IMG/VR virus record: IMGVR_UViG_3300028031_000012
Coordinates: 1 to 25,631 of that record
DNA: 25,631 bases
Reading direction: 5' to 3' (one strand)
Origin: a virus
Both the position numbers and the translations under genes were made by a program. Below the pieces are notes generated by a model. That model saw only the letters and a program-made list of their open reading frames with translations, was not told where the DNA came from and did no database searches. Shown piece by piece: positions 4 through 21,400 of this stretch (positions are counted from its first letter, which is position 1; each line of letters begins with the position of its first letter).

Positions 4-207
4 TCATACATTGTCTTTCTTGTCTCCGAATACAGGAACCATATAATCAAATTTAGTTTTTTCAATTGACATGGATTTTTTCAAAATGCTTCTAATAAGA
101 TCACCAACATCTACACCCCTGGCTTGCGCTACACAGCGTAATTGCTCGTCTAATGTGTGCGAAAGCCTGAATGTTTGGCTAGCTATCTTTTTTTCCTCGT
201 TTAACAT
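4..207 (-). CDS. Arc-like ribbon-helix-helix DNA-binding protein
   Basis: A 67-residue protein. Residues about 8-19 can form the DNA-contacting beta strand (ASQTFRLSHTL), followed by two helices (DEQLRCVAQARG and DVGDLIRSILKK). That is the size and layout of Arc/MetJ/CopG-type repressors, which bind operators as dimers. It is the second gene of the leftward transcript that starts with the Cro-like gene and lies just after an intrinsic terminator, so its expression probably depends on readthrough. Its TGA stop overlaps an ATG (positions 7-5, minus strand) in the ATGA arrangement used throughout this genome, so another gene probably begins there and leaves the window. A role as a lytic-phase repressor, like Arc in P22 immI, is inference; the fold call is fairly safe. 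Confidence 0.8.
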   Translation of the reverse strand: MLNEEKKIASQTFRLSHTLDEQLRCVAQARGVDVGDLIRSILKKSMSIEKTKFDYMVPVFGDKKDNV

Positions 208-216
208 TCTTTACTC

Positions 217-246
217 AAAAAAAAGCCCCGAGTTTTTACACCCGGG
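217..246 (-). terminator. Intrinsic terminator between cro-like and arc-like genes
   Basis: On the minus strand CCCGGG pairs with CTCGGG (one G-T pair) around an 8-base loop, followed by GC and eight T. It would end most transcripts from the Cro promoter before the Arc-like gene. If an antitermination system exists, this is a natural target, comparable to lambda tR1. Confidence 0.75.
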
Positions 247-258
247 ACAAAGTTCAAT

Positions 259-317: not shown

Positions 318-536
318 TCATGCGGCTTGCTCAGATCCAAATACATCCGGGCGAAGCTGAAATCTATTAACTCGACCATCTAGAGCCTCATCAATTAATC
401 GGGCTTCGATAGCTGGAACTTTTAGATCACGGTTTAGCCAAGTTGAAATGTGTGATTGCTTACGGCCTATAAGCTTTGCGAGAGCTGTTTGGCCACCAGC
501 GATTTCTATCGCTTTCTCTAGATATTTTGTATTCAT
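318..536 (-). CDS. Cro/YdaS-family HTH regulator
   Basis: A 72-residue DNA-binding protein. Residues 14-36 (GGQTALAKLIGRKQSHISTW) form the helix-turn-helix, followed by the vPAIEARLIDEAL helix and the C-terminal LRPDVFG signature typical of YdaS/Cro-like proteins encoded opposite phage repressors. I chose the ATG at 536 rather than in-frame ATGs at 548 and 545, because those lie inside the -10 box (544-549) of its own promoter. With start 536 the mRNA would be leaderless or nearly so. It is divergent from the CI-like repressor, as Cro is in lambda, and should act early in the lytic switch by occupying the shared operator. Confidence 0.88.
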   Translation of the reverse strand: MNTKYLEKAIEIAGGQTALAKLIGRKQSHISTWLNRDLKVPAIEARLIDEALDGRVNRFQLRPDVFGSEQAA

Positions 537-543
537 GTAGCGC

Positions 544-572
544 ATCATAACTCATTTGCGTTATTCAGTCAA
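544..572 (-). promoter_or_regulatory. pR-like sigma-70 promoter of the Cro-like gene
   Basis: On the minus strand TTGACT (572-567), a 17-base spacer and TATGAT (549-544) form a near-consensus promoter with one mismatch in each box. Both operator half-sites (CATTTGAC and CGCAAATG) overlap the -35 box and the spacer, so a bound repressor should block RNA polymerase. The predicted start of transcription is near 537. Confidence 0.85.
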
Positions 573-585
573 ATGCTTTTGCGTT
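553..585. promoter_or_regulatory. OR-like operator, copy 1
   Basis: This 33-bp block carries the half-sites CATTTGCG (553-560), its inverse TCAAATGC (569-576, partner CATTTGAC on the other strand) and a degenerate third CTTTTGCG (576-583). It reappears inverted at 1372-1404 with 28 of 33 bases identical. It sits between the divergent Cro-like and CI-like genes and covers the Cro promoter, so it is the likely binding site of both regulators. Confidence 0.8.
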
Positions 586-620
586 TTGATTTTGATTTAA
601 ATATATGGAGTAATTGCAAA

Positions 621-1283
621 ATGGCATTAGGAAAGCGTGTAAAGCTCAGGCGAGAACAACTCGGACTGACACAAAAAGAACTCGGCAAGCTGGTCGGCCG
701 GTCTATATCTTATATACAATCTCTAGAGAATAGAGACTCAAGGAAAACACAAAATGTTAACTTATTAGCTGATGCATTAAAGACTACAGTATTGCATTTA
801 GAGACTGGTAGAGAGGTAAAAATTCACCTGGATGCAATAAAATTACAAATCCCGAGTAACTGCCAAAATAGTGAACTTGCTCACAAAACCATTAATTTTG
901 TGCCGCTAATATCGTGGGAAGAAGTTGGCGGTCTGCCTAAAATAATTAATGTAACTGATATAGGGAAACAGTTTCAGATGATTCCATGTATACAAAATCG
1001 GTCTAATGATGCTTACGCTCTGGAAATTTCCGGCGACTCAATGTCAAGCAGTGGGGTAGATTCATTCCCATCTGGCACGAAAATAATCATTGACCCAGAA
1101 AGATCAGCGGATAATGGAGACTTCGTTATTGCGATGATAAATGGCGATGATCAGGTTGTTTTCAAGCAACTTATAATTGATGGATCGCGTCAATATCTCA
1201 AGTCATTAAACTCTCAATACCCCATCATTACAGAGCAATTCACAGTGCTTGGCCGACTTATATCTTCCATTAAAGATTATTAA
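621..1283 (+). CDS. CI-like phage repressor (HTH + S24 peptidase domain)
   Basis: A 220-residue LexA/CI-type repressor that would maintain lysogeny by binding the operators at 553-585 and 1372-1404. The N-terminal HTH_3 domain is at about residues 5-60 (LTQKELGKLVGRSISYIQSL). A linker follows, then the S24 domain with catalytic Ser140 (GDSM) and Lys182 (VVFKQL). The scissile-type motif ISWEEVGG places Val102-Gly103 where Ala-Gly or Cys-Gly is usual. I chose the ATG at 621, which has GGAG 10 bases upstream and begins with a normal repressor N-terminus. A longer reading from 573 would start inside the operator and add 16 residues with no family resemblance. An intrinsic terminator follows the stop. 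RecA-stimulated self-cleavage is the expected induction route. Confidence 0.93.
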   Translation: MALGKRVKLRREQLGLTQKELGKLVGRSISYIQSLENRDSRKTQNVNLLADALKTTVLHLETGREVKIHLDAIKLQIPSNCQNSELAHKTINFVPLISWEEVGGLPKIINVTDIGKQFQMIPCIQNRSNDAYALEISGDSMSSSGVDSFPSGTKIIIDPERSADNGDFVIAMINGDDQVVFKQLIIDGSRQYLKSLNSQYPIITEQFTVLGRLISSIKDY

Positions 1284-1306
1284 ATAAACCGCTGTACCAA
1301 TTCTAG

Positions 1307-1333
1307 ACCCGTTGCATTTGCGGGTTTTTTATT
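1307..1333 (+). terminator. Intrinsic terminator after the repressor gene
   Basis: ACCCG (1307-1311) pairs with CGGGT (1321-1325), followed by a run of T. It insulates the repressor transcript from the second operator/promoter just downstream. Confidence 0.8.
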
Positions 1334-1371
1334 GCCTGTTCTAAAATAAATATAATATTAATTTAATAAAT

Positions 1372-1404
1372 AACGCATTTGCATTTGACTTATTAACGCA
1401 AATG
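1372..1404. promoter_or_regulatory. OL-like operator, copy 2 (inverted)
   Basis: This is the inverted copy of the 553-585 operator, 28 of 33 bases identical. It contains CATTTGAC and the inverse of CATTTGCG overlapping the pL-like promoter, plus a tandem extra CATTTG half-site at 1376-1381. The pair reproduces the lambda OL/OR arrangement on the two sides of the repressor gene. Confidence 0.8.
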
Positions 1405-1413
1405 AATTAAGCT
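1385..1413 (+). promoter_or_regulatory. pL-like promoter of the plus-strand early operon
   Basis: TTGACT (1385-1390), a 17-base spacer and TAAGCT (1408-1413). The -10 is weak, but the element aligns base for base with the strong Cro promoter in the inverted operator copy. The predicted start is near 1420, about 24 bases before the first gene. Confidence 0.7.
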
Positions 1414-1443: not shown

Positions 1444-1611
1444 ATGAAAACACATACAAAAACAATTCAAGGCCAAAAAGTAACAGCTTACAACGATAGC
1501 AACGCTGAATGGGTTGTTCAGTTGAATGACCACACTGATCGTTTTGATATGCGTAATTGGACTATGAAAGACGCAATGAGCTTTATGGTTGAGATTTGGG
1601 GCAATAAATAA
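1444..1611 (+). CDS. Small protein, first gene of the pL-like operon
   Basis: A 55-residue protein I do not recognise. It begins about 24 bases after the predicted transcription start and its TAA overlaps the next ATG (TAATG). It is acidic to neutral and lacks the arginine-rich motif of lambda N, although it has N's position. Being first behind a repressor-controlled promoter, it should be made immediately on infection. Tryptophan-rich patches (AEWVVQL, MRNWTMKDAM) suggest a small folded domain. Confidence 0.75.
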   Translation: MKTHTKTIQGQKVTAYNDSNAEWVVQLNDHTDRFDMRNWTMKDAMSFMVEIWGNK

Positions 1612-1835
1612 TGGTTCACCATTTTTGCAAAGGTAGCCTTAAATTTGCTCGACTTGAAGCTAAACGTTTAAGTATAAAAATACCTCCAATATCAAGCTCT
1701 GAAATGCATACAGAGAATTATGCCGTTTTTCTTGGTGATGACTGGTACTCAGAACATAACAGCTGCTGCGTTTGGGCTGCTCGATCTGAAGCCATCTATG
1801 ACTTTATAGATACACGAGATAGAAATGGCAATTGA
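1611..1835 (+). CDS. Hypothetical early protein
   Basis: A 74-residue protein with no family I recognise. It is translationally coupled to the preceding gene (TAATG) and overlaps the next by 11 bases. It has a basic N-terminal third (KGSLKFARLEAKRL) and an acidic, tryptophan-containing C-terminal half with a Cys-Cys pair. Confidence 0.7.
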   Translation: MVHHFCKGSLKFARLEAKRLSIKIPPISSSEMHTENYAVFLGDDWYSEHNSCCVWAARSEAIYDFIDTRDRNGN

Positions 1836-2010
1836 ATTTGAAAAATCAAACAACTGCTACGTTAAAGCATTTGAGCTAGACAGTGAAGGCTTACGAAAGC
1901 CGGGGTCTGTTATGACTCAATCTGTCGAAGCAAATCTTTCGCTGGCAATACTTGAAAAGCTTGAAGAGATTCGCATAGTTCTTGTCGATATCAAATTTTC
2001 CGACCTTTAA
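1825..2010 (+). CDS. Hypothetical early protein
   Basis: A 61-residue protein of unknown function, mixed alpha/beta by appearance. It starts inside the end of the previous gene and is preceded by a GAGATAGAA ribosome-binding stretch. The C-terminal part (LSLAILEKLEEIRIVLVDI) looks like a helix followed by a strand. Confidence 0.65.
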   Translation: MAIEFEKSNNCYVKAFELDSEGLRKPGSVMTQSVEANLSLAILEKLEEIRIVLVDIKFSDL

Positions 2011-2026
2011 TAAACGAGTAGAGAAG

Positions 2027-2257
2027 ATGAATCAAGAATCAGTATTACAAGATATTAAAAAGCAAGCTGAAAGCGACACAGAGAAGAAAAACGTTACTGT
2101 CGTTTTCACCACTGAAAATTTATTAACTGGTCGCATTGGTCTTCCTATCGAAATTAGATATCAGAAAACAGCGAAAACTGGTCGCGTTATGGATAAGAAA
2201 GAAAAGACATATTTCTTTCCTATGTACGATCCATTTACCGGCAAAAAGGTTAAGTAA
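2027..2257 (+). CDS. Hypothetical early protein
   Basis: A 76-residue lysine-rich protein, unrecognised. I chose the ATG at 2027, which has an AGAGAAG-type ribosome-binding stretch and follows the previous stop. A longer reading from 1982 would overlap the upstream gene. The middle is beta-rich (NVTVVFTTENLL, GLPIEIRYQKT). The TAA overlaps the next ATG. Confidence 0.7.
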   Translation: MNQESVLQDIKKQAESDTEKKNVTVVFTTENLLTGRIGLPIEIRYQKTAKTGRVMDKKEKTYFFPMYDPFTGKKVK

Positions 2258-2529
2258 TGACAATCGGCCACGCATTAGCAGAACCAACCGAAAAGCCAGA
2301 TACATTCGAGGCAGAGGTTGAGTATCACATCATGAACAGAGCGCGCGGAATAACAGAGCGCCTCTACAGGACTGAAGAAGCTGACCAGGCCATTGATAAC
2401 TTCCACCATGATCTGTACGCCCTATTAAGCGACAGAGCCAACTGCATGTTTGTACACCATCCTATTTTTAAACAATTCAAAACCCTTTACGAAGAAGCGG
2501 CAGAGAGTTTTACGGAGCATAACGAATGA
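2257..2529 (+). CDS. Hypothetical early protein
   Basis: A 90-residue, mostly helical acidic protein with several His and Tyr residues (FHHDLYALL, FVHHPIFKQF). Family unknown. It is coupled to its upstream neighbour by TAATG and to the next gene by ATGA. Its 3' end carries the first copy of a 17-bp junction repeat (2513-2529). Confidence 0.7.
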   Translation: MTIGHALAEPTEKPDTFEAEVEYHIMNRARGITERLYRTEEADQAIDNFHHDLYALLSDRANCMFVHHPIFKQFKTLYEEAAESFTEHNE

Positions 2530-2688
2530 ATGCAAAATTATTTTCCTTGTCGATGTTTATGACTGTCATCCCATGGGGTTACTTTCCTAATACTTTGGGG
2601 CTTGCGCTAATCGGCCTTGCTGTTCAGTTAGTAGGTTTATTTATTCTCATTTTTAAACACAAAGAAATATTCGGAGCATAACGAATGA
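2513..2688 (+). repeat. 17-bp direct repeat at two gene junctions (2513-2529, 2672-2688)
   Basis: CGGAGCATAACGAATGA occurs exactly at 2513-2529 and 2672-2688. Each copy supplies a GGAG ribosome-binding site and an ATG for the gene that follows, so the two copies flank the 51-residue membrane protein gene as a cassette. Confidence 0.85.
2526..2681 (+). CDS. Small two-helix membrane protein
   Basis: A 51-residue protein starting at the ATGA overlap with the previous gene, with GGAG 9 bases upstream. Two hydrophobic segments (about residues 5-20 and 24-44) are joined by a short turn containing Pro-Asn, and the C-terminus is short and basic (FKHKEIFGA). It should insert in the inner membrane as a hairpin. 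Its position in the early operon suggests a host-modifying or exclusion role, but nothing in the sequence shows which. Confidence 0.7.
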   Translation: MNAKLFSLSMFMTVIPWGYFPNTLGLALIGLAVQLVGLFILIFKHKEIFGA

Positions 2689-2972
2689 GCAGGTATATGG
2701 AATGTTTTTACATTGATAGCAATGGCAAAGAATTACAGATAAATGTTACCGCTGATTTTGAAGACAGTGACTTTACGACATCTATATTTGATTCGTATAA
2801 AAGCCATGAAACAAATATCAAAGACGCTGGTTTTATAATCTATTTGCGTGATCCAGACGGAGATATAGTTGATTCAATGCCGATTTGTTCTGAAAGCTTT
2901 TCCATGATTACCGGAGAGCCAGTTCTAACCGAAAAGGAATACATAAAAATTGATCAAAGGTGCAACAAATGA
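2685..2972 (+). CDS. Hypothetical early protein
   Basis: A 95-residue acidic protein, probably beta-rich (MECFYIDSNGKELQINVTAD, GFIIYLRDPDGDIV). No known family recognised. It is preceded by the second copy of the junction repeat, which supplies its GGAG, and it ends in an ATGA overlap. Confidence 0.75.
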   Translation: MSRYMECFYIDSNGKELQINVTADFEDSDFTTSIFDSYKSHETNIKDAGFIIYLRDPDGDIVDSMPICSESFSMITGEPVLTEKEYIKIDQRCNK

Positions 2973-3121
2973 ACAAACAATACCGCGTCAAATGGGAATA
3001 CAAAGGCTTTGAAGGTTATGGCAAGCCGCTATCAAAAGAAATAGCCCAGAAGACCGCTGATGACATGAAGTCGGCTAATCCTGAATGTGATTATAAATAC
3101 TCGATAGAAGAGGTTAAGTGA
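2969..3121 (+). CDS. Small hypothetical protein
   Basis: A 50-residue protein (starts MNKQYRVKWEYKGFEGYGKP). It starts at an ATGA overlap with the previous gene and its TGA overlaps the next ATG (TGATG). A beta-hairpin followed by a helix (KEIAQKTADDMKSANP) is plausible. Function unknown. Confidence 0.7.
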   Translation: MNKQYRVKWEYKGFEGYGKPLSKEIAQKTADDMKSANPECDYKYSIEEVK

Positions 3122-3303
3122 TGTATTTCTTAATGTCCAAATACGGCCACATGCTAAACGGTAACGGTTCGATGATGACCTTCGCCAGTATTGAATCTAT
3201 CGAGTCTTATATTGACGATGTTGACAGACTGGGCAACGACACGGACAAGATGAATTTTAGTCCCATTTATGTTGCAGATGGTGATGAGGGTGTTAAGTCA
3301 TGA
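3121..3303 (+). CDS. Small hypothetical protein
   Basis: A 60-residue acidic protein, unrecognised. I chose the ATG in the TGATG overlap at 3121; a GTG three bases earlier is the alternative. It ends in an ATGA overlap with the next gene, so it is part of a coupled string. Confidence 0.65.
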   Translation: MYFLMSKYGHMLNGNGSMMTFASIESIESYIDDVDRLGNDTDKMNFSPIYVADGDEGVKS

Positions 3304-3587
3304 TGACAGATAGAGAAATAATCGAAGTTGTCCAGGCTCATATTGATGGAAAGGATATACAGTTTAAAACTACAGGAAATACAGAATGGAGATCACCTGA
3401 TAATAATGGCCTCTTTTGGCAATTCTATGATTGTGATTATCGGGTCAAGCCAGAGCCGCGCAAGTTTTGGATTAATAAATACTTTAGTAATCAAGACACC
3501 GTTTATGACAATGAATACTCTGCAAAAAACAGCGTGATACTTGGCGGAGAAACCATCGAATTAGTAGAGGTTATGAAAGGTGAGTGA
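3300..3587 (+). CDS. Phage protein with YRVKPEP motif
   Basis: A 95-residue protein resembling a common but uncharacterised kind of early phage protein. An N-terminal helix is followed by a region naming a W/F-rich strand and the CDYRVKPEPRKFWI motif (about residues 44-58) that I know from many phage hypotheticals. A second ATG three bases on (3303) could be the start. It overlaps its neighbours at both ends. Confidence 0.8.
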   Translation: MMTDREIIEVVQAHIDGKDIQFKTTGNTEWRSPDNNGLFWQFYDCDYRVKPEPRKFWINKYFSNQDTVYDNEYSAKNSVILGGETIELVEVMKGE

Positions 3588-3759
3588 AATAAAATTATTC
3601 GTATCTAAAGAACTGCTTATAAATCTTTACAATCTCGGGTATCACTCTGGGCACCATGACACTGTTGAAGCGTGCTATACAGATATTTTCCCTCAAGATA
3701 TGAAAACTTTCCATGCAGACGAAGTTATCGAAATAATAGAAGACCTTAAGGATGATTAA
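3580..3759 (+). CDS. Small phage protein, GTG start
   Basis: A 59-residue acidic protein read from a GTG that overlaps the previous gene by 8 bases, with AGAGG 9 bases upstream. The motif LYNLGYHSGHHDTVEACY resembles small uncharacterised proteins seen in many phage early regions. No function can be assigned. Confidence 0.7.
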   Translation: MSEIKLFVSKELLINLYNLGYHSGHHDTVEACYTDIFPQDMKTFHADEVIEIIEDLKDD

Positions 3760-3762
3760 CTC

Positions 3763-3981
3763 ATGGTCATGACAATAAACGAACAGTCTGAAGTAGATAA
3801 GTTTCTTTACACGAAAACGCCAAAGCTATTAGACAGAATAAAGCTATCAGATCATGAAAAGAGAATTTACAAGATGAGAAAAAAAGGCATGAGTGCAACT
3901 CAAATTGGGAAGAAATTAAACATCATGGCTCAGACAGTCCACAGTTCTTTGAGCCACATTAAAAATAAGGGTTGGAGGTAG
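3763..3981 (+). CDS. Small HTH protein (sigma-70 region 4-like)
   Basis: A 72-residue protein. The C-terminal half (LSDHEKRIYKMRKKGMSATQIGKKLNIMAQTVHSSL, about residues 28-63) has the spacing of a LuxR/sigma-region-4 helix-turn-helix, with the recognition helix at IMAQTVHSSLSHIKNK. The N-terminus is short and charged. It is probably a DNA-binding regulator of the phage or host. Autorepressors of this size sit beside anti-defence genes in other phages, but its membership of a continuous operon gives no specific support for that. Confidence 0.7.
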   Translation: MVMTINEQSEVDKFLYTKTPKLLDRIKLSDHEKRIYKMRKKGMSATQIGKKLNIMAQTVHSSLSHIKNKGWR

Positions 3982-3982
3982 T

Positions 3983-4162
3983 ATGAATATTTTACTTAAG
4001 ATAAATGAACACGATCCAGACATGGTTGAAATGTGGGCAGAGCCTGAAGTTATGTTAATGAGCGTTTTTCATATTGATTGCTTACAGAGTAGACCTCTAT
4101 TTGAAAAACTACGCGAAGATAAACAAGTTCATACGAATCTAACGATTGATTTTACCAAATGA
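3983..4162 (+). CDS. Small hypothetical protein
   Basis: A 59-residue acidic protein, unrecognised, with GGAGG (3974-3978) upstream inside the end of the preceding gene, 4 bases before the ATG. It ends in an ATGA overlap with the next gene. Methionine-rich centre (DMVEMWAEPEVMLMS). Confidence 0.65.
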   Translation: MNILLKINEHDPDMVEMWAEPEVMLMSVFHIDCLQSRPLFEKLREDKQVHTNLTIDFTK

Positions 4163-4365
4163 ACTCAATAATCACATACAAGCAAGGCGAAGAAGCGTCA
4201 AGACTAGCCCACTGGGAATATATTAAACGAAGCCTTTTCGCTCTTAAATTTGAATTAGCAAACCGAAGAAACAGACCTCAACGATTAAAGGTAACAGACC
4301 CAATCGATATCGGGTGTTTTAGGGTTGTTGATAGGGATGCTTTTAACAAGGTGATGAAATCATGA
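4159..4365 (+). CDS. Small basic hypothetical protein
   Basis: A 68-residue basic protein with a helical middle (AHWEYIKRSLFALKFELANRR) and a short beta-like end (VTDPIDIGCFRVV). No family recognised. Coupled by ATGA overlaps at both ends. Nucleic-acid binding is possible from the charge but not shown. Confidence 0.65.
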   Translation: MNSIITYKQGEEASRLAHWEYIKRSLFALKFELANRRNRPQRLKVTDPIDIGCFRVVDRDAFNKVMKS

Positions 4366-4562
4366 GCAAAAGCACAGAAGAAGACAGAGAAGAAGTTAGG
4401 TATTTTAATGGATTTTTTGTTGGGTCACTTAACGATACAGAATTAGCGTCATTTGATCGGTGCGTTGCTGACGGTTTAGCTAGTTATGATTACGGTCATA
4501 ACGCCGGATTTTTTGGATTAGCGAAAGTTAAATTAAATAAAATTTATTCTATAGATAGGTGA
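4362..4562 (+). CDS. Small hypothetical protein
   Basis: A 66-residue acidic protein, unrecognised. It starts at an ATGA overlap and ends 4 bases before the annealing-protein gene. Glycine/aromatic-rich C-terminal half (YDYGHNAGFFGLAKV). Confidence 0.65.
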   Translation: MSKSTEEDREEVRYFNGFFVGSLNDTELASFDRCVADGLASYDYGHNAGFFGLAKVKLNKIYSIDR

Positions 4563-4566
4563 AAGC

Positions 4567-5493
4567 ATGACCAAACTAGCAACAATTGAAAAGAAGGTTT
4601 CGCTTGATTATTCCGGTTTCTTCCAGCCTGGTACTGTTGATTTATTAAACGAAGATTTGGCGAAGGAAGATGTTAAACAAAGAGACGGCACCGGAAAGCA
4701 AAAACTTTCTTATATAGCCTCATTCCACGCTATCAATGAAGCAAATCGTATCTTCGGTTTTGGTAACTGGTCAACCGAAATCATGCACCTTCAGCAGATA
4801 GACAAAACAGAGTACACAAAACCCGCGTACGAAGCTGGCGACCCACCGAAGGACATGATTTCAATATCTTACAACTGCCATTTAAAACTAACTATTTCCA
4901 ATGGTCATCGATCTGTTTCACACGAGGATACTGGTTTTGGTAATGGTGTTGCAGGTAAAACCGCTTACGGTATTGGGAGCTGTATTGAACTAGCTTCGAA
5001 AGAAGCTGTTACGGATGCGCTCAAGCGTTGTCTTCGCTACTACGGGAATAAGTTTGGCCTATCTCTATATGATAAAGATAGCGCGCCTGTAGGTTCCTTA
5101 GAGATCGAGAAAGCAAAGGTTGTCACACCTGAACAGCTTGATAATCTTCGCAGCCTGTACGAAGCCAGGGGTATTGATGATCAATGGGTGATAACTGCCA
5201 TCAAGACTGAAAACTACCCGAATAATGAATTAGAGACTATGCGCTTCGACTGGTATGAATTAGCACTCAGAATTACAACAGATTTCAAGCTGGATGAAAT
5301 CACAAAAGCTAATTATGAAGAAGATATCAAAAAGGTTATTAAACTGCTTAATAATCCAGCGAATTTTACCATGCTGAAAGCTACTTTTCAGGAAGCCTGG
5401 GAAAAGACTGGCGCGCAGGGAGATAAAACCAAACAACTTGAAGTGCAGAAAATATATGAACAACTTAAGACAAAATTTGAGGCGGGATCATGA
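4567..5493 (+). CDS. Rad52/22-family single-strand annealing protein
   Basis: A 308-residue recombinase-type protein that would anneal complementary single strands during phage recombination and replication. The Rad52/22 core (about residues 25-170) shows its usual landmarks: LSYIASFHAINEANRIFGFGNW, a central beta sheet (MISISYNCHLKLTI), HEDTGFGNG, and the helix ASKEAVTDALKRCLRYYGNKFG followed by LYDK. The rest is a charged, mostly helical C-terminal tail that may bind partners such as SSB. AGGTGA lies 4 bases before the ATG. The next gene (Gp157-like) overlaps by ATGA, a common pairing in phages. No partner exonuclease gene is seen in the window. Confidence 0.93.
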   Translation: MTKLATIEKKVSLDYSGFFQPGTVDLLNEDLAKEDVKQRDGTGKQKLSYIASFHAINEANRIFGFGNWSTEIMHLQQIDKTEYTKPAYEAGDPPKDMISISYNCHLKLTISNGHRSVSHEDTGFGNGVAGKTAYGIGSCIELASKEAVTDALKRCLRYYGNKFGLSLYDKDSAPVGSLEIEKAKVVTPEQLDNLRSLYEARGIDDQWVITAIKTENYPNNELETMRFDWYELALRITTDFKLDEITKANYEEDIKKVIKLLNNPANFTMLKATFQEAWEKTGAQGDKTKQLEVQKIYEQLKTKFEAGS

Positions 5494-5984
5494 AACTTTA
5501 TGAATTGACAGAACAACACAGAGAGCTTGCTGTTTTAGCTGAATCAGACGAGGGTGATTTATCAGAAGCCCTGGCCGATACCTTTGAAGCTCTTGAAGGC
5601 GAGTTTAATGATAAGGCTATCTCGGTCATTCATGTTGTTAAAAATATGGATGCAGATGGCGACGCAATTGATAACGAAATCAAACGACTTCAAGCGCGTA
5701 AAAAATCAGTCCAGAATAAACAAAACTGGATGCGTGAATATCTTCGATCCAATATGGAAGCCTCTGGTATATCAAAAATCGAATGTCCTATTTTTACCAT
5801 AGCTTTAGCCAAAGGCCGCGACATTGTAGAAATTACCGATGAAGGCAAAATCGATGCAGAATATTTGAATATCAAGACATCAGTCACACCGATAAAAGCC
5901 GATATTTTGAAGGCGCTGAAGGAAGGAAAGGAAGTATCTGGATGCAGGCTTTCTAAATCAAACTCTTCCCTGAGAATCAAGTAA
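5490..5984 (+). CDS. Siphovirus Gp157-family protein
   Basis: A 164-residue protein matching the Gp157 family by length and layout: an N-terminal helical segment (MKLYELTEQHRELAVLAE), a long coiled-coil-prone middle (about residues 50-90, DNEIKRLQARKKSVQNKQNW) and a small C-terminal beta domain ending in SGCRLSKSNSSLRIK. The family is widespread beside phage annealing proteins and has been linked to phage resistance in streptococcal hosts; its biochemical role is not settled. It overlaps the annealing-protein gene by ATGA, so the two are co-translated. Confidence 0.88.
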   Translation: MKLYELTEQHRELAVLAESDEGDLSEALADTFEALEGEFNDKAISVIHVVKNMDADGDAIDNEIKRLQARKKSVQNKQNWMREYLRSNMEASGISKIECPIFTIALAKGRDIVEITDEGKIDAEYLNIKTSVTPIKADILKALKEGKEVSGCRLSKSNSSLRIK

Positions 5985-6008
5985 CTAGCCGCATAACCAG
6001 GAATAGAA

Positions 6009-6203
6009 ATGAGCCTTACTTTATATGAAATAAACAGTTCCATTAATGACGCCAGAAGGACAATCGAAAATGCAGATGAATCGACTGAACGTATGTGTCG
6101 TTTAATTATTGGCCGGTTAAGGCATGTTGAATCTAGATTTGTATTAAAAGAGATTAAACGCGAGCTGCGAGACTACAATATGAATACAGGTACATGGAAA
6201 TGA
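6009..6203 (+). CDS. Small hypothetical protein
   Basis: A 64-residue, arginine- and glutamate-rich helical protein with an AGGA ribosome-binding site. No family recognised. Its last codons overlap the start of the next gene (ATGA). Confidence 0.65.
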   Translation: MSLTLYEINSSINDARRTIENADESTERMCRLIIGRLRHVESRFVLKEIKRELRDYNMNTGTWK

Positions 6204-6589
6204 ATGAACTAATCTACAGGCCGATAGCTGAATATAACCTTTATGAGGCTGTGGAAAATTACGGCATTTGGCTGCGGTATCGAGACCAGGGTGATGAACT
6301 GATTAATCATACCAGGGTTTCTGCCCTTATTGAAAATGAGGATATAACCCACTTCTGCTACATACATAAACCAGTAATCCCTTTTGAGCCTGTAGAGGGT
6401 AATGGTTATATGTTTAAAGCAATACTTGAATCTAGTGAATGCTGGTCGTTTGATATTCTGAGACGCGTTGAAAACAGTAATACTAATTCTGTTTTTTACA
6501 TAGCTAAATCTGATTTTTACTATACGGAATGCCGCCCTTGCACAATCGAAGAACGCGACAAATACGTGCCTGTTGAGATAGGGGAATAG
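6200..6589 (+). CDS. Hypothetical early protein
   Basis: A 129-residue acidic protein, rich in aromatic residues and with five cysteines, unrecognised. I chose the ATG in the ATGA overlap at 6200 over the in-frame ATG at 6194, because this genome uses that junction repeatedly. The spaced tryptophan/tyrosine strands (YGIWLRYRDQGDE, FYIAKSDFYYTECRPCT) suggest a beta-rich fold. Confidence 0.7.
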   Translation: MNELIYRPIAEYNLYEAVENYGIWLRYRDQGDELINHTRVSALIENEDITHFCYIHKPVIPFEPVEGNGYMFKAILESSECWSFDILRRVENSNTNSVFYIAKSDFYYTECRPCTIEERDKYVPVEIGE

Positions 6590-6591
6590 TT

Positions 6592-6831
6592 ATGAGTCAT
6601 TCTTATATGGATTACGATAATCCAAAATTATCCGGTCAGAAGGCTTTTCTTAGGGGTTTTGAAAGAGTAGACAATCCGGTAAGTAGTAGAACTGAAGCAA
6701 ACGCTAGAATACATTGGGATGACGGATGGGTAAAGCAGAGCAAAATAAAATGCAAAGGAATTGAAATTCTCCCTGGATCATGGAGCGGATGCACTCAAAC
6801 AGGCGGCGATTGTCCGGTTTGCGGTTTGTAA
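6592..6831 (+). CDS. Small RMF/CrpP-like protein with C-terminal cysteine knuckle
   Basis: A 79-residue protein. The N-terminal half (KAFLRGFERVDNPV ... HWDDGW, residues 17-46) has the A-x2-RG-F, NP and W-x2-GW landmarks of the RMF/CrpP-like fold; this is a resemblance by eye. The C-terminal end carries GCTQTGGDCPVCG with Cys54, Cys67, Cys74 and Cys77, a plausible zinc site that I know from other phage hypotheticals. Ribosome or RNA binding would follow if the RMF likeness is real; that is inference. Confidence 0.7.
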   Translation: MSHSYMDYDNPKLSGQKAFLRGFERVDNPVSSRTEANARIHWDDGWVKQSKIKCKGIEILPGSWSGCTQTGGDCPVCGL

Positions 6832-6869
6832 ATTGTAACAACTAACAGAAGGCTATCAGGTAAATAGTT

Positions 6870-7100
6870 ATGCCAAACATTACAGAGCGAACTGATGAAC
6901 TCGTTGAGGAATTAATTTACTGTGATCTACGAAATAGCATCGGACTAGATAAAGCTAAGTCAATAGTTCGTAGAGCGCTTAGAAGACAGGATATTTTAGA
7001 ATCAAGATTTCGTCATATACATGTAAATAAACATGATGGAACCGATACCTGTAAAGAATGCGGTTTCGATTTACGTGACCCAATCCATGTAGGGGAATAG
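6870..7100 (+). CDS. Small zinc-finger-like phage protein
   Basis: A 76-residue protein with a helical N-terminus (ELVEELIYCDLRN, SIVRRALRRQ) and a C-terminal HIHVNKHDGTDTCKECG FDLRDPIH segment. Cys61, Cys64 and the surrounding histidines (49, 51, 55, 73) could bind zinc. The CxxCGxDLRDxxH ending recurs in small early proteins of many proteobacterial phages, function unknown. It lies between the two copies of the 24-bp repeat. Confidence 0.75.
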   Translation: MPNITERTDELVEELIYCDLRNSIGLDKAKSIVRRALRRQDILESRFRHIHVNKHDGTDTCKECGFDLRDPIHVGE

Positions 7101-7102
7101 TT

Positions 7103-7318
7103 ATGAATACAAGAAAGGTAGTTATTTACGAATACAAGAAAGCCAAAGGACAAACTCACTTTGAAAAAGTTTCAGTCGGGCATGGGTTATTTCATCAATT
7201 CGGTATGGATTACGAAGAATTTGAAAATGGCACGGGAAACTATTCAACAGCGATTGTTGAAATGCCTGACGGAGAAGTAAAGAATATTCCGGTTGAATTA
7301 ATAGTTTTCAACAACTAA
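7103..7318 (+). CDS. Small hypothetical protein
   Basis: A 71-residue protein, beta-rich by appearance (RKVVIYEYKKAKG, STAIVEMPDGEVKNIPVELIVF), a pattern common in small phage SH3-like or OB-like proteins but not diagnostic. It is headed by the 17-bp junction repeat. Confidence 0.7.
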   Translation: MNTRKVVIYEYKKAKGQTHFEKVSVGHGLFHQFGMDYEEFENGTGNYSTAIVEMPDGEVKNIPVELIVFNN

Positions 7319-7336
7319 CAGAAGGCTATCAGGGTG

Positions 7337-7462
7337 ATGATTAATTATAAAAAAGGGCATAAGGCAACACTGTCAGTATTTGCTGACCTGCTCGTATATG
7401 AGTTTATGTCGGGTCTTGTGTCCTTTTTTATAAGGTATAACAGTCTATCCAACAGGAATTAA
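7337..7462 (+). CDS. Possible 41-residue protein within hairpin region
   Basis: An open frame read from ATG (or the GTG three bases earlier) after the 24-bp repeat, with a hydrophobic middle (LSVFADLLVYEFMSGLVSFF). It coincides almost exactly with a strongly folded DNA/RNA segment (7345-7433), so the frame may be incidental to a structural element. It has no recognised relatives. Confidence 0.4.
   Translation: MINYKKGHKATLSVFADLLVYEFMSGLVSFFIRYNSLSNRN
7345..7433. repeat. Long-armed inverted repeat with internal hairpins
   Basis: TTATAAAAAAGG (7345-7356) and CCTTTTTTATAA (7422-7433) are perfect 12-bp inverted repeats, extendable by five further pairs including two G-T. Inside lie GTCAG/CTGAC (7372-7376/7383-7387) and GACCTG/CGGGTC (7385-7390 with about 7410-7415); these two share bases, so they are alternatives. 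It could be a structured RNA, an attenuator or the remains of a small mobile element. Confidence 0.7.
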
Positions 7463-7464
7463 TA

Positions 7465-7620
7465 ATGAATAACCCATTTAAAGCAATACTTCGATATTTA
7501 GAAATATGGTTGTGCAAACGTGATTTTAATCGATTGTCTGAAGAAGACAAAGAGGCTATGAGATACCTTGGAGCCGACCCCGAAACAAGAATTAAAAATG
7601 GTGGTTTTGACTATGAATAA
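7465..7620 (+). CDS. Small hypothetical protein
   Basis: A 51-residue charged, mostly helical protein (starts MNNPFKAILRYLEIW), with ACAGGAA upstream as ribosome-binding site. Its end overlaps the next gene by 8 bases (ATGAATAA). The sequence EEDKEAMRYLGADPE suggests a short helical hairpin. Unrecognised. Confidence 0.65.
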   Translation: MNNPFKAILRYLEIWLCKRDFNRLSEEDKEAMRYLGADPETRIKNGGFDYE

Positions 7621-7792
7621 CGATCTAAACCAGCCAAATGAATACCCTGACCAAACAGGTAAATATTGGGAGTTATTTAATCATCTAGCCAACGAGCATG
7701 GCATCACGTTACTCGATGAGGAAATGGATCAGATTAAAATAATTTGCGATAGATTAAACCAGCCAGATGAAAGCAAATCATTAAAAAATTAA
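7613..7792 (+). CDS. Small hypothetical protein
   Basis: A 59-residue acidic protein. I chose the ATG at 7613 that overlaps the previous stop; a longer in-frame reading from 7568 would overlap the upstream gene by 53 bases. The motif LNQPNEYPDQTGKYWELF is not one I recognise; the sequence LNQPDES near the end partly repeats LNQPNEY. Confidence 0.65.
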   Translation: MNNDLNQPNEYPDQTGKYWELFNHLANEHGITLLDEEMDQIKIICDRLNQPDESKSLKN

Positions 7793-7804
7793 ATGGAGTA
7801 GAAA

Positions 7805-8020
7805 ATGTTAAAAACAACTTACGAATGTGATTTATGCAAAAAGAAATGCGCTATAACTTCTCAGGGTCATGCAGGGGCAATTATTAATGAAAATATTAGT
7901 TTAAATTATGGGTATATTGATAAAGTTAATTTCCCTCCTGGATGGGTAAATATTGGTACTAGCGCTGTCTGTGAGAAATGTTTTGACTTAACGAAAAGTA
8001 TTAAAAAACGTAAAACATAA
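7805..8020 (+). CDS. Small zinc-ribbon-like protein
   Basis: A 71-residue protein with two CxxC pairs (Cys8/Cys11 and Cys56/Cys59) about 45 residues apart, typical of a zinc ribbon, and a basic tail (SIKKRKT). GGAG lies 8 bases before the ATG. Nucleic-acid or protein binding is likely; the target cannot be told. Confidence 0.75.
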   Translation: MLKTTYECDLCKKKCAITSQGHAGAIINENISLNYGYIDKVNFPPGWVNIGTSAVCEKCFDLTKSIKKRKT

Positions 8021-8042
8021 CTACAAATCGACCACAATATTA

Positions 8043-8249
8043 ATGATCTTCCTAAGTCCTGAAGAAACCGTATTGCTGACTGGCTATCAAAAGCAGAAAT
8101 GCCAGTGCAATTGGCTTGCTAAAAATGACATACAGTTTATTGAAAATCACTTAGGACATCCGCAGATATTAAAATCAGAAATTGACAACAGAATACAGGG
8201 AGGTGTAAAACGTGAAGTCCTGCCGCACTTTGAAAAAATCAATGGGTAG
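8043..8249 (+). CDS. DUF4224 protein, candidate recombination directionality factor
   Basis: A 68-residue protein matching DUF4224: FLSPEETVLLTGYQKQKCQCNWL then NDIQFIENHLGHPQILKSEI, with the leading ELxxLTG-like HTH helix and a W-containing second helix. The family is found directly upstream of phage tyrosine integrases, as here, where it overlaps the integrase start by 38 bases. By position and size it is a good candidate for an excisionase-like or integrase-assisting DNA-binding protein, but the family has no settled function. Confidence 0.85.
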   Translation: MIFLSPEETVLLTGYQKQKCQCNWLAKNDIQFIENHLGHPQILKSEIDNRIQGGVKREVLPHFEKING

Positions 8250-9216
8250 ATCCAGAACAATAAATAAAAAGTTTCCGCCTCATTTTCACCAGTCTGGAAA
8301 CAACTATTATTTTGTGTCTTCTAAGCTCCCTCGTAGATGGGTTAACCTGGGACAAGACTACAGGCTTGCATTAACTGAATGGGCTTCTCTGGCAAGCTCT
8401 GGCGGAGATACAGGTACTATCAAATCAGCTATTGAGCATTACAAGATTCACGAGCTACCAGCTCAGGCAAAGAATTCACAAATCCAGCGAGGCTACCTTT
8501 TAAAACAGATTGATTTGATCTTTGGTCATATGAAATATTCCCAGTTACGAACAGTACACGTTAATCAATATCTGAGAACTAAAAAAGCCAAAGTCGCTGC
8601 AAATCACGAGATTACTTTATTATCGACTATATTCAGATATGCGATTAATAATGGTTGGACTGATCACAATCCTTGTGTTGGCGTGAAGATGAATAAGGTT
8701 AAAAAGAGAGAGCGGTATATTACTGATCTTGAGTTACAGGAACTGAGAAACCACGCTTCAGACAGTATGCGCTGTATGATCGATCTAGCATACCTTACTG
8801 CTATGCGTAGGGGCGATATCCTGGCCTTAAAGCTCTCAGACATATCCGAGCAAGGTATTCAAGTTAAGCAGCTCAAAACAAGCAAGAAACAACTGTTTAA
8901 GTGGTCGACCGCGCTTCGTGAAGTGATTGCCAGGGCAAAGAAAGCTCGCAAGACCAGGAATATAACTTACTTATTCACAAGCGAACACGGATCTCAATTG
9001 ACAGACTCAGGATTCAATAGCGCATTCCAGAGACTTAAAAGAAAGATCGGCATAAAAGATACTCATTTTCATGACGTTCGCAGCAAGTCAATTACTGACG
9101 CTAAACGATTAAAAGGTTTGGATTACGCTCAAGCCCTGGCCGGACATGCTAACCAGTCGATGACAGAGCATTATATTAAACAGCGTGAAATAACTACTGT
9201 GGAGCCTTGGAAATGA
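8212..9216 (+). CDS. int: Tyrosine site-specific integrase
   Basis: A 334-residue recombinase that would insert and excise the genome at att. The N-terminal part includes an arm-binding segment and the core-binding SAM-like domain (about 65-160); the catalytic domain spans about 165-330. Catalytic residues: Arg199 (TAMRRGD), Lys near 225 (KTSKK), His287 and Arg290 (HDVR), His312 (AGHAN) and Tyr321 (EHYIK), all present. I chose the GTG at 8212 because GGGAGGTG lies 6 bases upstream. The ATG at 8242 gives a more family-like MGRSRT start but has no ribosome-binding site. The putative attP lies 285 bases downstream. Confidence 0.95.
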   Translation: MKSCRTLKKSMGRSRTINKKFPPHFHQSGNNYYFVSSKLPRRWVNLGQDYRLALTEWASLASSGGDTGTIKSAIEHYKIHELPAQAKNSQIQRGYLLKQIDLIFGHMKYSQLRTVHVNQYLRTKKAKVAANHEITLLSTIFRYAINNGWTDHNPCVGVKMNKVKKRERYITDLELQELRNHASDSMRCMIDLAYLTAMRRGDILALKLSDISEQGIQVKQLKTSKKQLFKWSTALREVIARAKKARKTRNITYLFTSEHGSQLTDSGFNSAFQRLKRKIGIKDTHFHDVRSKSITDAKRLKGLDYAQALAGHANQSMTEHYIKQREITTVEPWK

Positions 9217-9500
9217 ATATTAAAAATAGCATATTGCTGTCAGGACAACCGGATTTTACTGATAATACTGGTGACGACCTTCAGCCAGGAGAAGCGCCTG
9301 CCGGGAATAGATTGTACTCAATGTATCAAATTCGAAACCCAACAAGAAACGCTGTGATCATCGAGTATACCGGCGATATCGTCACGGGTAGCAGTCTGGG
9401 CAATTGTGGTCTTATTAGAACAGTTTCAATCGAATGCAAGGATGAAGCCATGATGCAATTTTTGCAGGCTAAAGCAAGTAGATTAATGAATGCCGGATAA
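9213..9500 (+). CDS. Hypothetical protein downstream of integrase
   Basis: A 95-residue protein, unrecognised, starting at an ATGA overlap with the integrase gene (an ATG at 9207 is the alternative). Beta-rich middle (MYQIRNPTRNAVIIEYTGDIV) and a helical end (EAMMQFLQAKASRLMNA). It is the last gene before the putative attP, so it may be separated from the integrase promoter's control region only after integration. Confidence 0.75.
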   Translation: MNIKNSILLSGQPDFTDNTGDDLQPGEAPAGNRLYSMYQIRNPTRNAVIIEYTGDIVTGSSLGNCGLIRTVSIECKDEAMMQFLQAKASRLMNAG

Positions 9501-11750: not shown

Positions 11751-13754
11751 TCCATACAATAAAGGCATCCCGTAAGGGGTATTTAATTTGTTTTGGTTCA
11801 ACAACAAGCCTGGGTTCATTATTTGTTTAGCTGCTCTACTGTCAGCCATTGAGCTTAATGGATCGGTAATCATAGGTTTGATAAACGGCGCGCTTTTCCC
11901 TAGATTCAACAACCCACCCATAACGGTAGTTCCTGAATTTGAATTATTTACCGCGCTGGCTGTTGGTTGAAACTGTTCGTAATTAGAGACATTTCTAATT
12001 GTTTTAAGCTGATCGATTTCAGACTTTGTAAAGAATAGTTTTAACTTATTATCGCCAATATCTTTAATGGCTCTATGTAATCCAGCACTGCTTAATTTAG
12101 CGGTATCGCCGCCTCTTTGATTCAATGCTTTGTCTTTAATAAAACCCATTATTTGATTGCGAACAGTCTGCATAACTTCAGGGTCTTTTTTGATTTCATT
12201 CGCAAGTTTCGAAACATCTTTAGTGTCGGCGGATTTGTTTAATACAAACTTTTCCATGAAATTATCCAGATCGACACCTTTTTTATCAGTTGCTGACTTA
12301 ATGCCTTTTGAGCTTTCTCGCCATACCATTAATTCCCGGTTGGCTTTTCTGGCTTCTCTAAAAGAATCCATCGCACCCTTTGATATCTTTCCTCTCATAG
12401 GAGTTTCGACAAGTGCCTGCTTTACCGCACCTGCCGCCATTCTCACATTGCCGTCGGGATTAGTCATGGCATTTGATAACACAGTTTCCATAGTATCAAT
12501 AGTATTCACATTAAACGGAACCTCCCTGGCCTCACCTAACAATGATTTTTGTCCGTAAGAAACCTCATTCAGCATTGTCTTAACTTCTGGTGGTAGAAAA
12601 GCATTGCTGTTTTTCTGTCTCATTAATTCATCTGCGCGGGTTACAAACCATGATCTATCAAGCGGAATTTCTCGTCCTTCCTGGGATTCGGCCATTTTAT
12701 ATAATGCGTTTTTCTTTGCATTTAATGCGCTGTCTTTGGTTTGTATTAACCCTGTGATTGACTTGCCGCCTGCGGCTCTTGTATAGCCTTGTGAGGCACC
12801 TAAATCGTCCAGCCCTTGCAAGAGTGAAGCTTCATTTTCATTTGTGATGTTACCTAGCCTTTGTAAGTTTTTATCACTGGTATTCATCCCAATTTTGGCC
12901 AGGTTTTTCTGTTGTGTTATGTCTGCTGGGTTTAAAGTAATAGAACCTTTAGTTGGTGTTGCGTTGACCTTCTCGTACTCGACCAGACGTTTTAATCCGG
13001 CTTCGTCAACATCACCATTTTGCAAAGCTTTTGTTACTTTCTCTTTAATCGCGCCCATTGCATTAGGAGTAATGCCCTGGGTTTGAACGCCAGTCCGTTG
13101 AATGACTTTATCCACTAATTCATCAGTGACATTATTTAAAAGACTTTTCGCTTTCATTGGTAAAACATTACTAGCCGTTTTAGCCATAGAAGCCACACCA
13201 GCAGGAGCAATACCGGCTAACAATGAGGATACAACTTGAGAGGTTGCTCCACCACCTTGTAGTTTTGATTGCTCACCCGCCGCACCTGATGACATCGCCG
13301 AAACGCCTTGTAACATTGGCGAAGTAGTCAAAGACTTCCCTAAATACTTAGATATCTCTTGAGGCGCTTTTGATAACAATCCACCAGTACCGACAAAGCC
13401 ACCACCACCTGATAAGAATTGCTGAGCTTTACCAGATATTTTCTCACTGTCAGTGTACGGTTCGGGAAGTCCAGCTTTATCCATATAGTAATCAGCCGCC
13501 CCTGAAACGCTCATTGGCACATCCAGGCCGATTTTGTTCATACCGTACCTTAGTGGTTCGGTTAGAATATTAGCAGTATCAGCAACGCCCTGAACTACGT
13601 TACGAGCCATTAAACCCGCCGCCCTGGGCAATGTCTGTTCTGGGACTGCCTGAGTATCCATACCCTCTAATTGTTGCATGGTCATCTTAGCGAGATTCAC
13701 ATCACCGCTTTTTAATGCCAGGTCAGTTAATTTTAATAACTCGTCCCGTGTCAT
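11703..13754 (-). CDS. Probable ejection (internal virion) protein, large
   Basis: A 683-residue, mostly helical, alanine/glycine-rich protein with no transmembrane anchor but a long glycine-rich amphipathic N-terminal region (FLSGGGGFVGTGG, SSLLAGIAPAGVASMA). Length, composition and place at the end of the late operon, after the nozzle gene, fit the DNA-ejection proteins of P22-like podoviruses (compare gp16, gp20), which leave the capsid ahead of the DNA and build a conduit across the envelope. The assignment rests on synteny and composition; I see no catalytic motif such as a lytic transglycosylase ExxxS. ATGA overlap with the upstream gene. Confidence 0.7.
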   Translation of the reverse strand: MTRDELLKLTDLALKSGDVNLAKMTMQQLEGMDTQAVPEQTLPRAAGLMARNVVQGVADTANILTEPLRYGMNKIGLDVPMSVSGAADYYMDKAGLPEPYTDSEKISGKAQQFLSGGGGFVGTGGLLSKAPQEISKYLGKSLTTSPMLQGVSAMSSGAAGEQSKLQGGGATSQVVSSLLAGIAPAGVASMAKTASNVLPMKAKSLLNNVTDELVDKVIQRTGVQTQGITPNAMGAIKEKVTKALQNGDVDEAGLKRLVEYEKVNATPTKGSITLNPADITQQKNLAKIGMNTSDKNLQRLGNITNENEASLLQGLDDLGASQGYTRAAGGKSITGLIQTKDSALNAKKNALYKMAESQEGREIPLDRSWFVTRADELMRQKNSNAFLPPEVKTMLNEVSYGQKSLLGEAREVPFNVNTIDTMETVLSNAMTNPDGNVRMAAGAVKQALVETPMRGKISKGAMDSFREARKANRELMVWRESSKGIKSATDKKGVDLDNFMEKFVLNKSADTKDVSKLANEIKKDPEVMQTVRNQIMGFIKDKALNQRGGDTAKLSSAGLHRAIKDIGDNKLKLFFTKSEIDQLKTIRNVSNYEQFQPTASAVNNSNSGTTVMGGLLNLGKSAPFIKPMITDPLSSMADSRAAKQIMNPGLLLNQNKLNTPYGMPLLYGSGGYLLDPDSDRNRQ

Positions 13755-21263: not shown

Positions 21264-21400
21264 TGGGCTGATTCACATTTTTGGAATCAGTAGCCGGTTA
21301 AATCCCGGCTGGTCACTGGTCAATAAATCAAGTACCAGTATTTCTGGTACTTGATTGTTTGATTGGCACCCGGCTTATAAAGGCAACACCCTGCCGGGTT
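21264..21400. ncRNA. Highly structured intergenic region, candidate RNA element
   Basis: Four hairpins lie in a row in the gene-free gap before the scaffold gene: CTGATTC/GAATCAG (21268-21274/21284-21290), AGCCGG/CCGGCT (21292-21297/21305-21310), a perfect 13-bp stem AATCAAGTACCAG/CTGGTACTTGATT with a 5-base loop (21326-21356), and ACCCGGC/GCCGGGT (21368-21374/21393-21399). None ends in a good T run on the minus strand, so they are not ordinary terminators. A cis-acting leader of the scaffold/capsid mRNA, or a small RNA, would fit. Confidence 0.5.

Follow-up and report, generated by a model that had tools for sequence, protein, structure and literature searches.

Gene content and layout of the region

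The DNA analysed here (the window, 25,631 nucleotides) is a complete IMG/VR record, IMGVR_UViG_3300028031_000012, that has no end repeats and is therefore probably a fragment. The genes and terminators around its repressor gene are as follows.

4..207, minus strand: CopG-like (ribbon-helix-helix-like) gene, 67 aa, in the cII position (open reading frame; weak Pfam match)
225..248, minus strand: terminator following cro, where lambda has tR1 (9-bp stem, T run; folded)
318..536, minus strand: cro-like gene of YdaS type, 72 aa (PF15943, 63.8 bits, cut-off 30)
621..1283, plus strand: cI-like repressor gene, 220 aa, HTH plus Peptidase_S24 (Pfam)
1305..1327, plus strand: terminator after cI (8-bp stem, T run)
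1444..9216, plus strand: early operon from PL (open reading frames, Pfam)

The cI-like and cro-like genes diverge from a gap (OR) in which predicted operators overlap the promoter PR, and beyond cI a second set of the same operator sequence (OL) lies at a promoter, PL, that faces away from the repressor gene. The early operon that follows holds small genes, Rad52 (4567-5493), Gp157 (5490-5984) and, at its far end, the integrase (8212-9216), so that the order reads leftward cro, OR, rightward cI, OL, early operon, int. Portal and terminase genes are on the minus strand at the opposite end of the contig, which is where they would be expected if the PR operon continues to them past the contig break.

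Among solved structures the repressor is best matched by the lambda repressor, with a likeness that covers most of its length. Its Ser140 and Lys182 fall opposite the catalytic pair of lambda in the alignment and, together with its domains, place it among HTH plus S24 repressors for which self-cleavage is predicted. The aligned cleavage site is V102-G103 (bases 924-929) where lambda has A-G, a difference that might slow self-cleavage. The recognition helix reads S30-Y-I-Q-S34.

The cro frame starts at ATG536 (the open frame runs on to 548), and its product is similar to the solved Cro protein 3bd1. The gene downstream of cro and its terminator matches CopG_antitoxin at E=0.0065, below the cut-off, and the contig ends just beyond it; none of the proteins tested matched an N-like or cII family. 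Between cro and the terminator, the minus strand at 258-300 carries inverted arms, GCCACATT ... AATGTGGC, a possible RNA element; the RNA from cro to the next gene does not fold clearly more strongly than its shuffles, and Rfam gave no match.

The collections searched (viral contigs and genome contigs) hold no close relatives of the window. In viral contigs the repressor found one weak match (L004) and the integrase none, while the search of genome contigs returned one unrelated HTH protein (L023). The records of phages related through the capsid or Rad52 protein (L020-L022) contain neither an S24 nor a YdaS gene.

An inverted pair on either side of the repressor gene

Bases 553-585 and the reverse complement of 1372-1404 are identical at 28 of 33 positions, as the original prediction had reported, and a weaker likeness extends around them across 539-602 and 1355-1418 (46/64). 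Both intergenic regions are AT-rich and bear promoters, and the match might be suspected of being a chance similarity of such DNA. When the two regions were shuffled 2,000 times with dinucleotides preserved, however, the best inverted 33-mer had on average 19.2 matches (sd 1.1; maximum 24) and none reached 25/33, and a motif taken from another contig (L009, below) picks the same places; chance can for practical purposes be dismissed. Elsewhere in the 25.6 kb only a local hairpin (21320-21362) provides an inverted 33-mer with at least 26 matches, and the window contains no other distant inverted pair as good as this one.

Promoters and predicted operators

The likeness of the two copies can be resolved into the following elements.

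544..572, minus strand: PR, TTGACT-17-TATGAT (10/12 consensus match; same register in L009 and L138)
586..614, plus strand: candidate PRM, TTGATT-17-AGTAAT (weak; inferred from a reading of the sequence)
1385..1413, plus strand: PL, TTGACT-17-TAAGCT (read from the sequence; aligns with PL of L009 and L138)
549..562, no strand assigned: OR1 (predicted), AACTCATTTGCGTT (joint rank 1 of 25,618, L009 motif)
572..585, no strand assigned: OR2 (predicted), AATGCTTTTGCGTT (rank 5 of 25,618, L009 motif)
1372..1385, no strand assigned: OL2 (predicted), AACGCATTTGCATT (joint rank 1 of 25,618, L009 motif)
1395..1408, no strand assigned: OL1 (predicted), AACGCAAATGAATT (rank 7 of 25,618, L009 motif)

A promoter with TTGACT and a 17-bp spacer, facing away from cI, had been proposed for each copy. 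Both can be recognized where they were placed: PR has TTGACT at 572-567 (minus strand) before TATGAT, and PL has TTGACT at 1385-1390 (plus strand) before TAAGCT, with a start expected near 1420. The proposal needs qualification for PL, which is weak by consensus because its -10 box shares only T, A and T with the consensus (3/6); PL is absent from the list produced by a consensus promoter scan. The same scan of the window did not pick the candidate PRM, which ends 6 nt upstream of ATG621.

Between the -10 box of PR and the ATG of cro there are 7 nt in both the window and L009, and 6 nt in L138, and therefore the cro mRNA looks leaderless and probably is; there is no Shine-Dalgarno sequence near ATG536 of the window. 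From the DNA, cI and cro both look leaderless (536-549 and 609-621, with inferred starts). Alternatively, the GGAG at 607-610, upstream of the cI ATG621, could be a ribosome site on a longer cI mRNA.

The ranks given above derive from a second contig, IMGVR_UViG_3300009408_000531 (L009), which was found via its Cro and whose repressor HTH is 53% identical to that of the window over 66 aa. Its cI/cro gap contains three perfect palindromes, AACGCGATTGCGGT, AACGCATTCGCGGT and ACCGCATGTGCGGT, and a weight matrix built from these alone (n=3) was scanned over 25,618 positions of the window. Four of its top seven sites are the predicted operators; the remaining three, at 11950, 13086 and 21966, are among structural genes. 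When the half-site columns were permuted to give 1,000 motifs, 952 of these had none of their top seven sites in the two regions, and 4 had four of them there.

The operators are thus most likely to be 14-bp palindromes of the form AAYGC-N4-GCGTT, two per arm and spaced by 23 bp within each arm. OR1 would sit in the PR spacer, touching the -10 box, and OR2 abuts the -35 box, its centre 42.5 bp from the cI ATG; OL1 (only a moderate match to the motif) and OL2 have identical placements on PL. No OR3 is visible, the next-best site of the OR region scoring far lower with the L009 motif.

The operator-promoter cassette in other phages

The distal half of the arrangement can also be sought in L009, where the matrix from its own gap also picks out ACCGCTTTTGCGGT and ACCGCGTTTGCGTT, which flank TTGACTTAT at a distance of 4.2 kb from OR; this second pair is likely to be its OL/PL. 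Where lambda has rexAB, between cI and the likely OL (approximately 5739-9470 of the reverse complement), L009 has ~3.7 kb of additional genes.

A search of viral contigs with the DNA pattern TTGAC-N4/5-AMCGC-N4-GCGTTAT returned 26 stretches, most of them chance matches or other promoters. Close site pairs (at most 1 mismatch) occur in two contigs only, that of L009 (stretch L109) and IMGVR_UViG_3300004151_000021 (stretch L111). The locus on the latter, L138, was reached through the promoter pattern and has, at a leftward TTGACT promoter, a distal pair with 23-bp spacing, AACGCAAATGCGTT and AACGAAAATGCGTT. Its cI/cro gap, 3.1 kb from this promoter and bounded by the genes for an HTH repressor of 140 aa and for a YdaS-type Cro, has a pair of its own, AACGAAATTGCGTT and AACGCAATTGCGTT, 34 bp apart with TTTACA as the -35 box. 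This second pair was not used in finding the contig and therefore constitutes independent support. Some unrelated contigs have a TTGAC box with AACGC-N4-GCGTT in the spacer (L108/L113 on IMGVR_UViG_3300031578_000055, L119, L122 and L127); these promoters possibly belong to a different regulator whose site is similar.

In L009 and L138 the cassette takes the form [AAYGC-N4-GCGTT]-TTGAC-N4/5-[AAYGC-N4-GCGTT]-(-10), at OR and at the distal promoter alike, and the operator corresponding to OR2 (the middle one in L009) is centred 42.5 bp (L009) or 43.5 bp (L138) from the cI ATG. The five cassettes aligned from the three phages can be written [AAYGC-N4-GC.TT]-TTGAC-N4/5-[AAYGC-N4-G.GTT]-A, with the -10 box beginning at the last T. 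The supporting contigs are only these two, both metagenomic and otherwise unrelated to the window. Their repressors have no S24 domain and therefore support the DNA-binding part of the interpretation only. A nearby inverted pair was also looked for in other YdaS-cro loci, and none was clearly above shuffles; an OL at 3-4 kb, as in L009 and L138, falls outside the range of that comparison.

These alignments bear on what the proteins would recognize. The original prediction had taken CATTTG-type sequences as the repressor half-sites, and CATTTG and CAAATG are indeed present at both ends of both copies, so that the operator might be a 23-bp dyad, CATTTG-N11-CAAATG (553-575 and 1382-1404), within the same OL/OR arrangement. 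We consider this improbable, and the CATTTG half-sites probably wrong. The AGTCAA between the paired operators is the -35 box, and the "CAAATG" of the window appears to be mostly this box read backwards. Conservation in related phages had been suggested as a check, and neither L009 nor L138, which share the helix and promoter layout, keeps the dyad; what is conserved across the three phages is AAYGC-N4-GCGTT flanking TTGAC. The exact 23-bp dyad pattern matched nothing in viral contigs, and we have rejected it as the operator. The inverted operator-promoter pair itself is confirmed in outline, with its binding unit corrected to the predicted 14-bp palindrome.

The same comparison applies to the notion that the pair is a terminal inverted repeat, or a recombination site at which a repressor cassette inverts or moves. 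A gene between inverted repeats does resemble a small element of this kind, but both copies fall on promoters, conservation is in the letters of the operator palindromes, the -35 box and the -10 box, and the DNA between the copies encodes no recombinase. In L009 and L138 the O2/-35/O1/-10 unit flanks different DNA, at 3-4 kb spacing, and we regard a mobile cassette as very improbable.

Paired sites at PR and PL accompany an x-I-Q-S recognition helix in the window, and among 75 HTH loci only the L009 contig and L138 share that helix; among the loci scanned, close pairs of good sites are likewise confined to these two contigs. The one named phage matched by the L138 repressor, AsXd-1, has a different helix that lacks I-Q-S, and its cI/cro gap has no matching operators. 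Helix and operator correlate across the three phages, which falls short of proving a code. On balance we incline to the view that the three loci define a previously undescribed code, x-I-Q-S with AAYGC-N4-GCGTT, in a fixed O2/-35/O1/-10 cassette. On this view phages without other relationship, and with dissimilar C-terminal domains in their repressors, have the cassette in common, and the switch of the window and of L138 works without an OR3, from two operators on each arm and with leaderless mRNAs of cI as well as cro.

Comparison with known immunity regions

The region is like the immunity region of lambda in its core features: divergent cI and cro with OR between them, OL/PL past cI and facing away, and an S24 repressor. 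The lambda OR2 is centred ~42 bp from the start of PRM and of cI, and OR2 of the window, at 42.5 bp, is at this activating position. In contrast to lambda, which has 17-bp operators in threes on each arm, the window has 14-bp operators in twos; it also has a YdaS-type Cro and no rexAB, and its arms are 0.8 kb apart as opposed to ~2.3 kb. Phages 21 and CUS-3 are similarly compact, their best inverted arm matches being 819 and 822 bp apart compared with 829 bp in the window, but they have another operator sequence and match at 18-19 of 25 bases as against 23 of 25. The inverted match of the window is the strongest of those compared (imm21, CUS-3, a P2-like phage and a Helicobacter prophage); the P2-like Shewanella phage and the Helicobacter prophage gave no inverted pair in this comparison. 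Phage 434 has a 14-bp palindrome and a related HTH domain, but the outer bases of its operator are ACAA/TTGT, whereas those of the window are AAYGC/GCGTT.

The nearest experimentally tested system is CP-933P of E. coli O157:H7 (the PaaR2/YdaS/YdaT region), in which PaaR2 and YdaS each repress PR and a distal PL that has the same repeats (PMC8630535). As in the window, a YdaS-type Cro diverges from the repressor, repeats are found in the cI/cro gap and at the distal PL, and the repressor mRNA, predicted to be leaderless in the window, is leaderless (PMC8630535). CP-933P differs in that PaaR2 is small and without sequence similarity to lambda CI, in its 18-bp repeats (consensus GTTTAGTAA; three at OR and three at OL), and in the toxin-antitoxin genes inside its repressor operon (PMC8630535). 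N15 resembles the window in having OR plus a two-operator OL, and PY54 in its leaderless cI and cro mRNAs; however, both are linear plasmid prophages (telomere phages), the OL of N15 controls a plasmid replication gene, and PY54 has a single Cro operator (PMC4488713).

Proposed working of the switch

The mirror-image lambda immunity region of the original prediction is supported by gene content and order, by the promoter positions and by the cassette in two independent contigs. We therefore put at nearly 90% the probability that a temperate phage has its immunity region here, as a mirror image of the lambda circuit, with a repressor that acts on paired 14-bp palindromes. From the sequence we infer that the S24-type cI would bind the AAYGC-N4-GCGTT pairs, with their 23-bp spacing, at OR (549-585) and OL (1372-1408), and would thereby block PR, which serves cro and the lytic operon beyond it, and PL, which serves the recombination genes through int. 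If the cI mRNA starts at the ATG, OR2, 42.5 bp upstream, would be placed where bound repressor could touch polymerase, and from this site cI probably activates its own promoter, which is weak and looks leaderless. Competition for the sites of cI probably comes from the YdaS-type Cro, and DNA damage would be expected to trigger S24 self-cleavage.

A repressor loop from OL to OR across ~0.8 kb is a prediction of this scheme. It is quite possible, although we would wager slightly against it, that OR and OL are bound separately and that the common operators merely co-regulate PR and PL: co-repression may need no more than a weak PL and two operators on each arm, and the repressors of L009 and L138 do without an S24 domain. 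Against this, the window repressor has a CI-like C-terminal domain, the part through which lambda CI oligomerises, and the separation of the arms is workable for a loop.

Under the mirror-image lambda interpretation, the window provides, from an uncultivated phage, a compact switch whose operators, promoters and start sites are predicted exactly. If there is truly no OR3, Cro would need to shut off cI by competing at OR2 and not at OR3. The comparison of three phages ties the recognition helix of a repressor to a DNA sequence, and the operator family common to three unrelated phage contigs is the most useful part of the finding.
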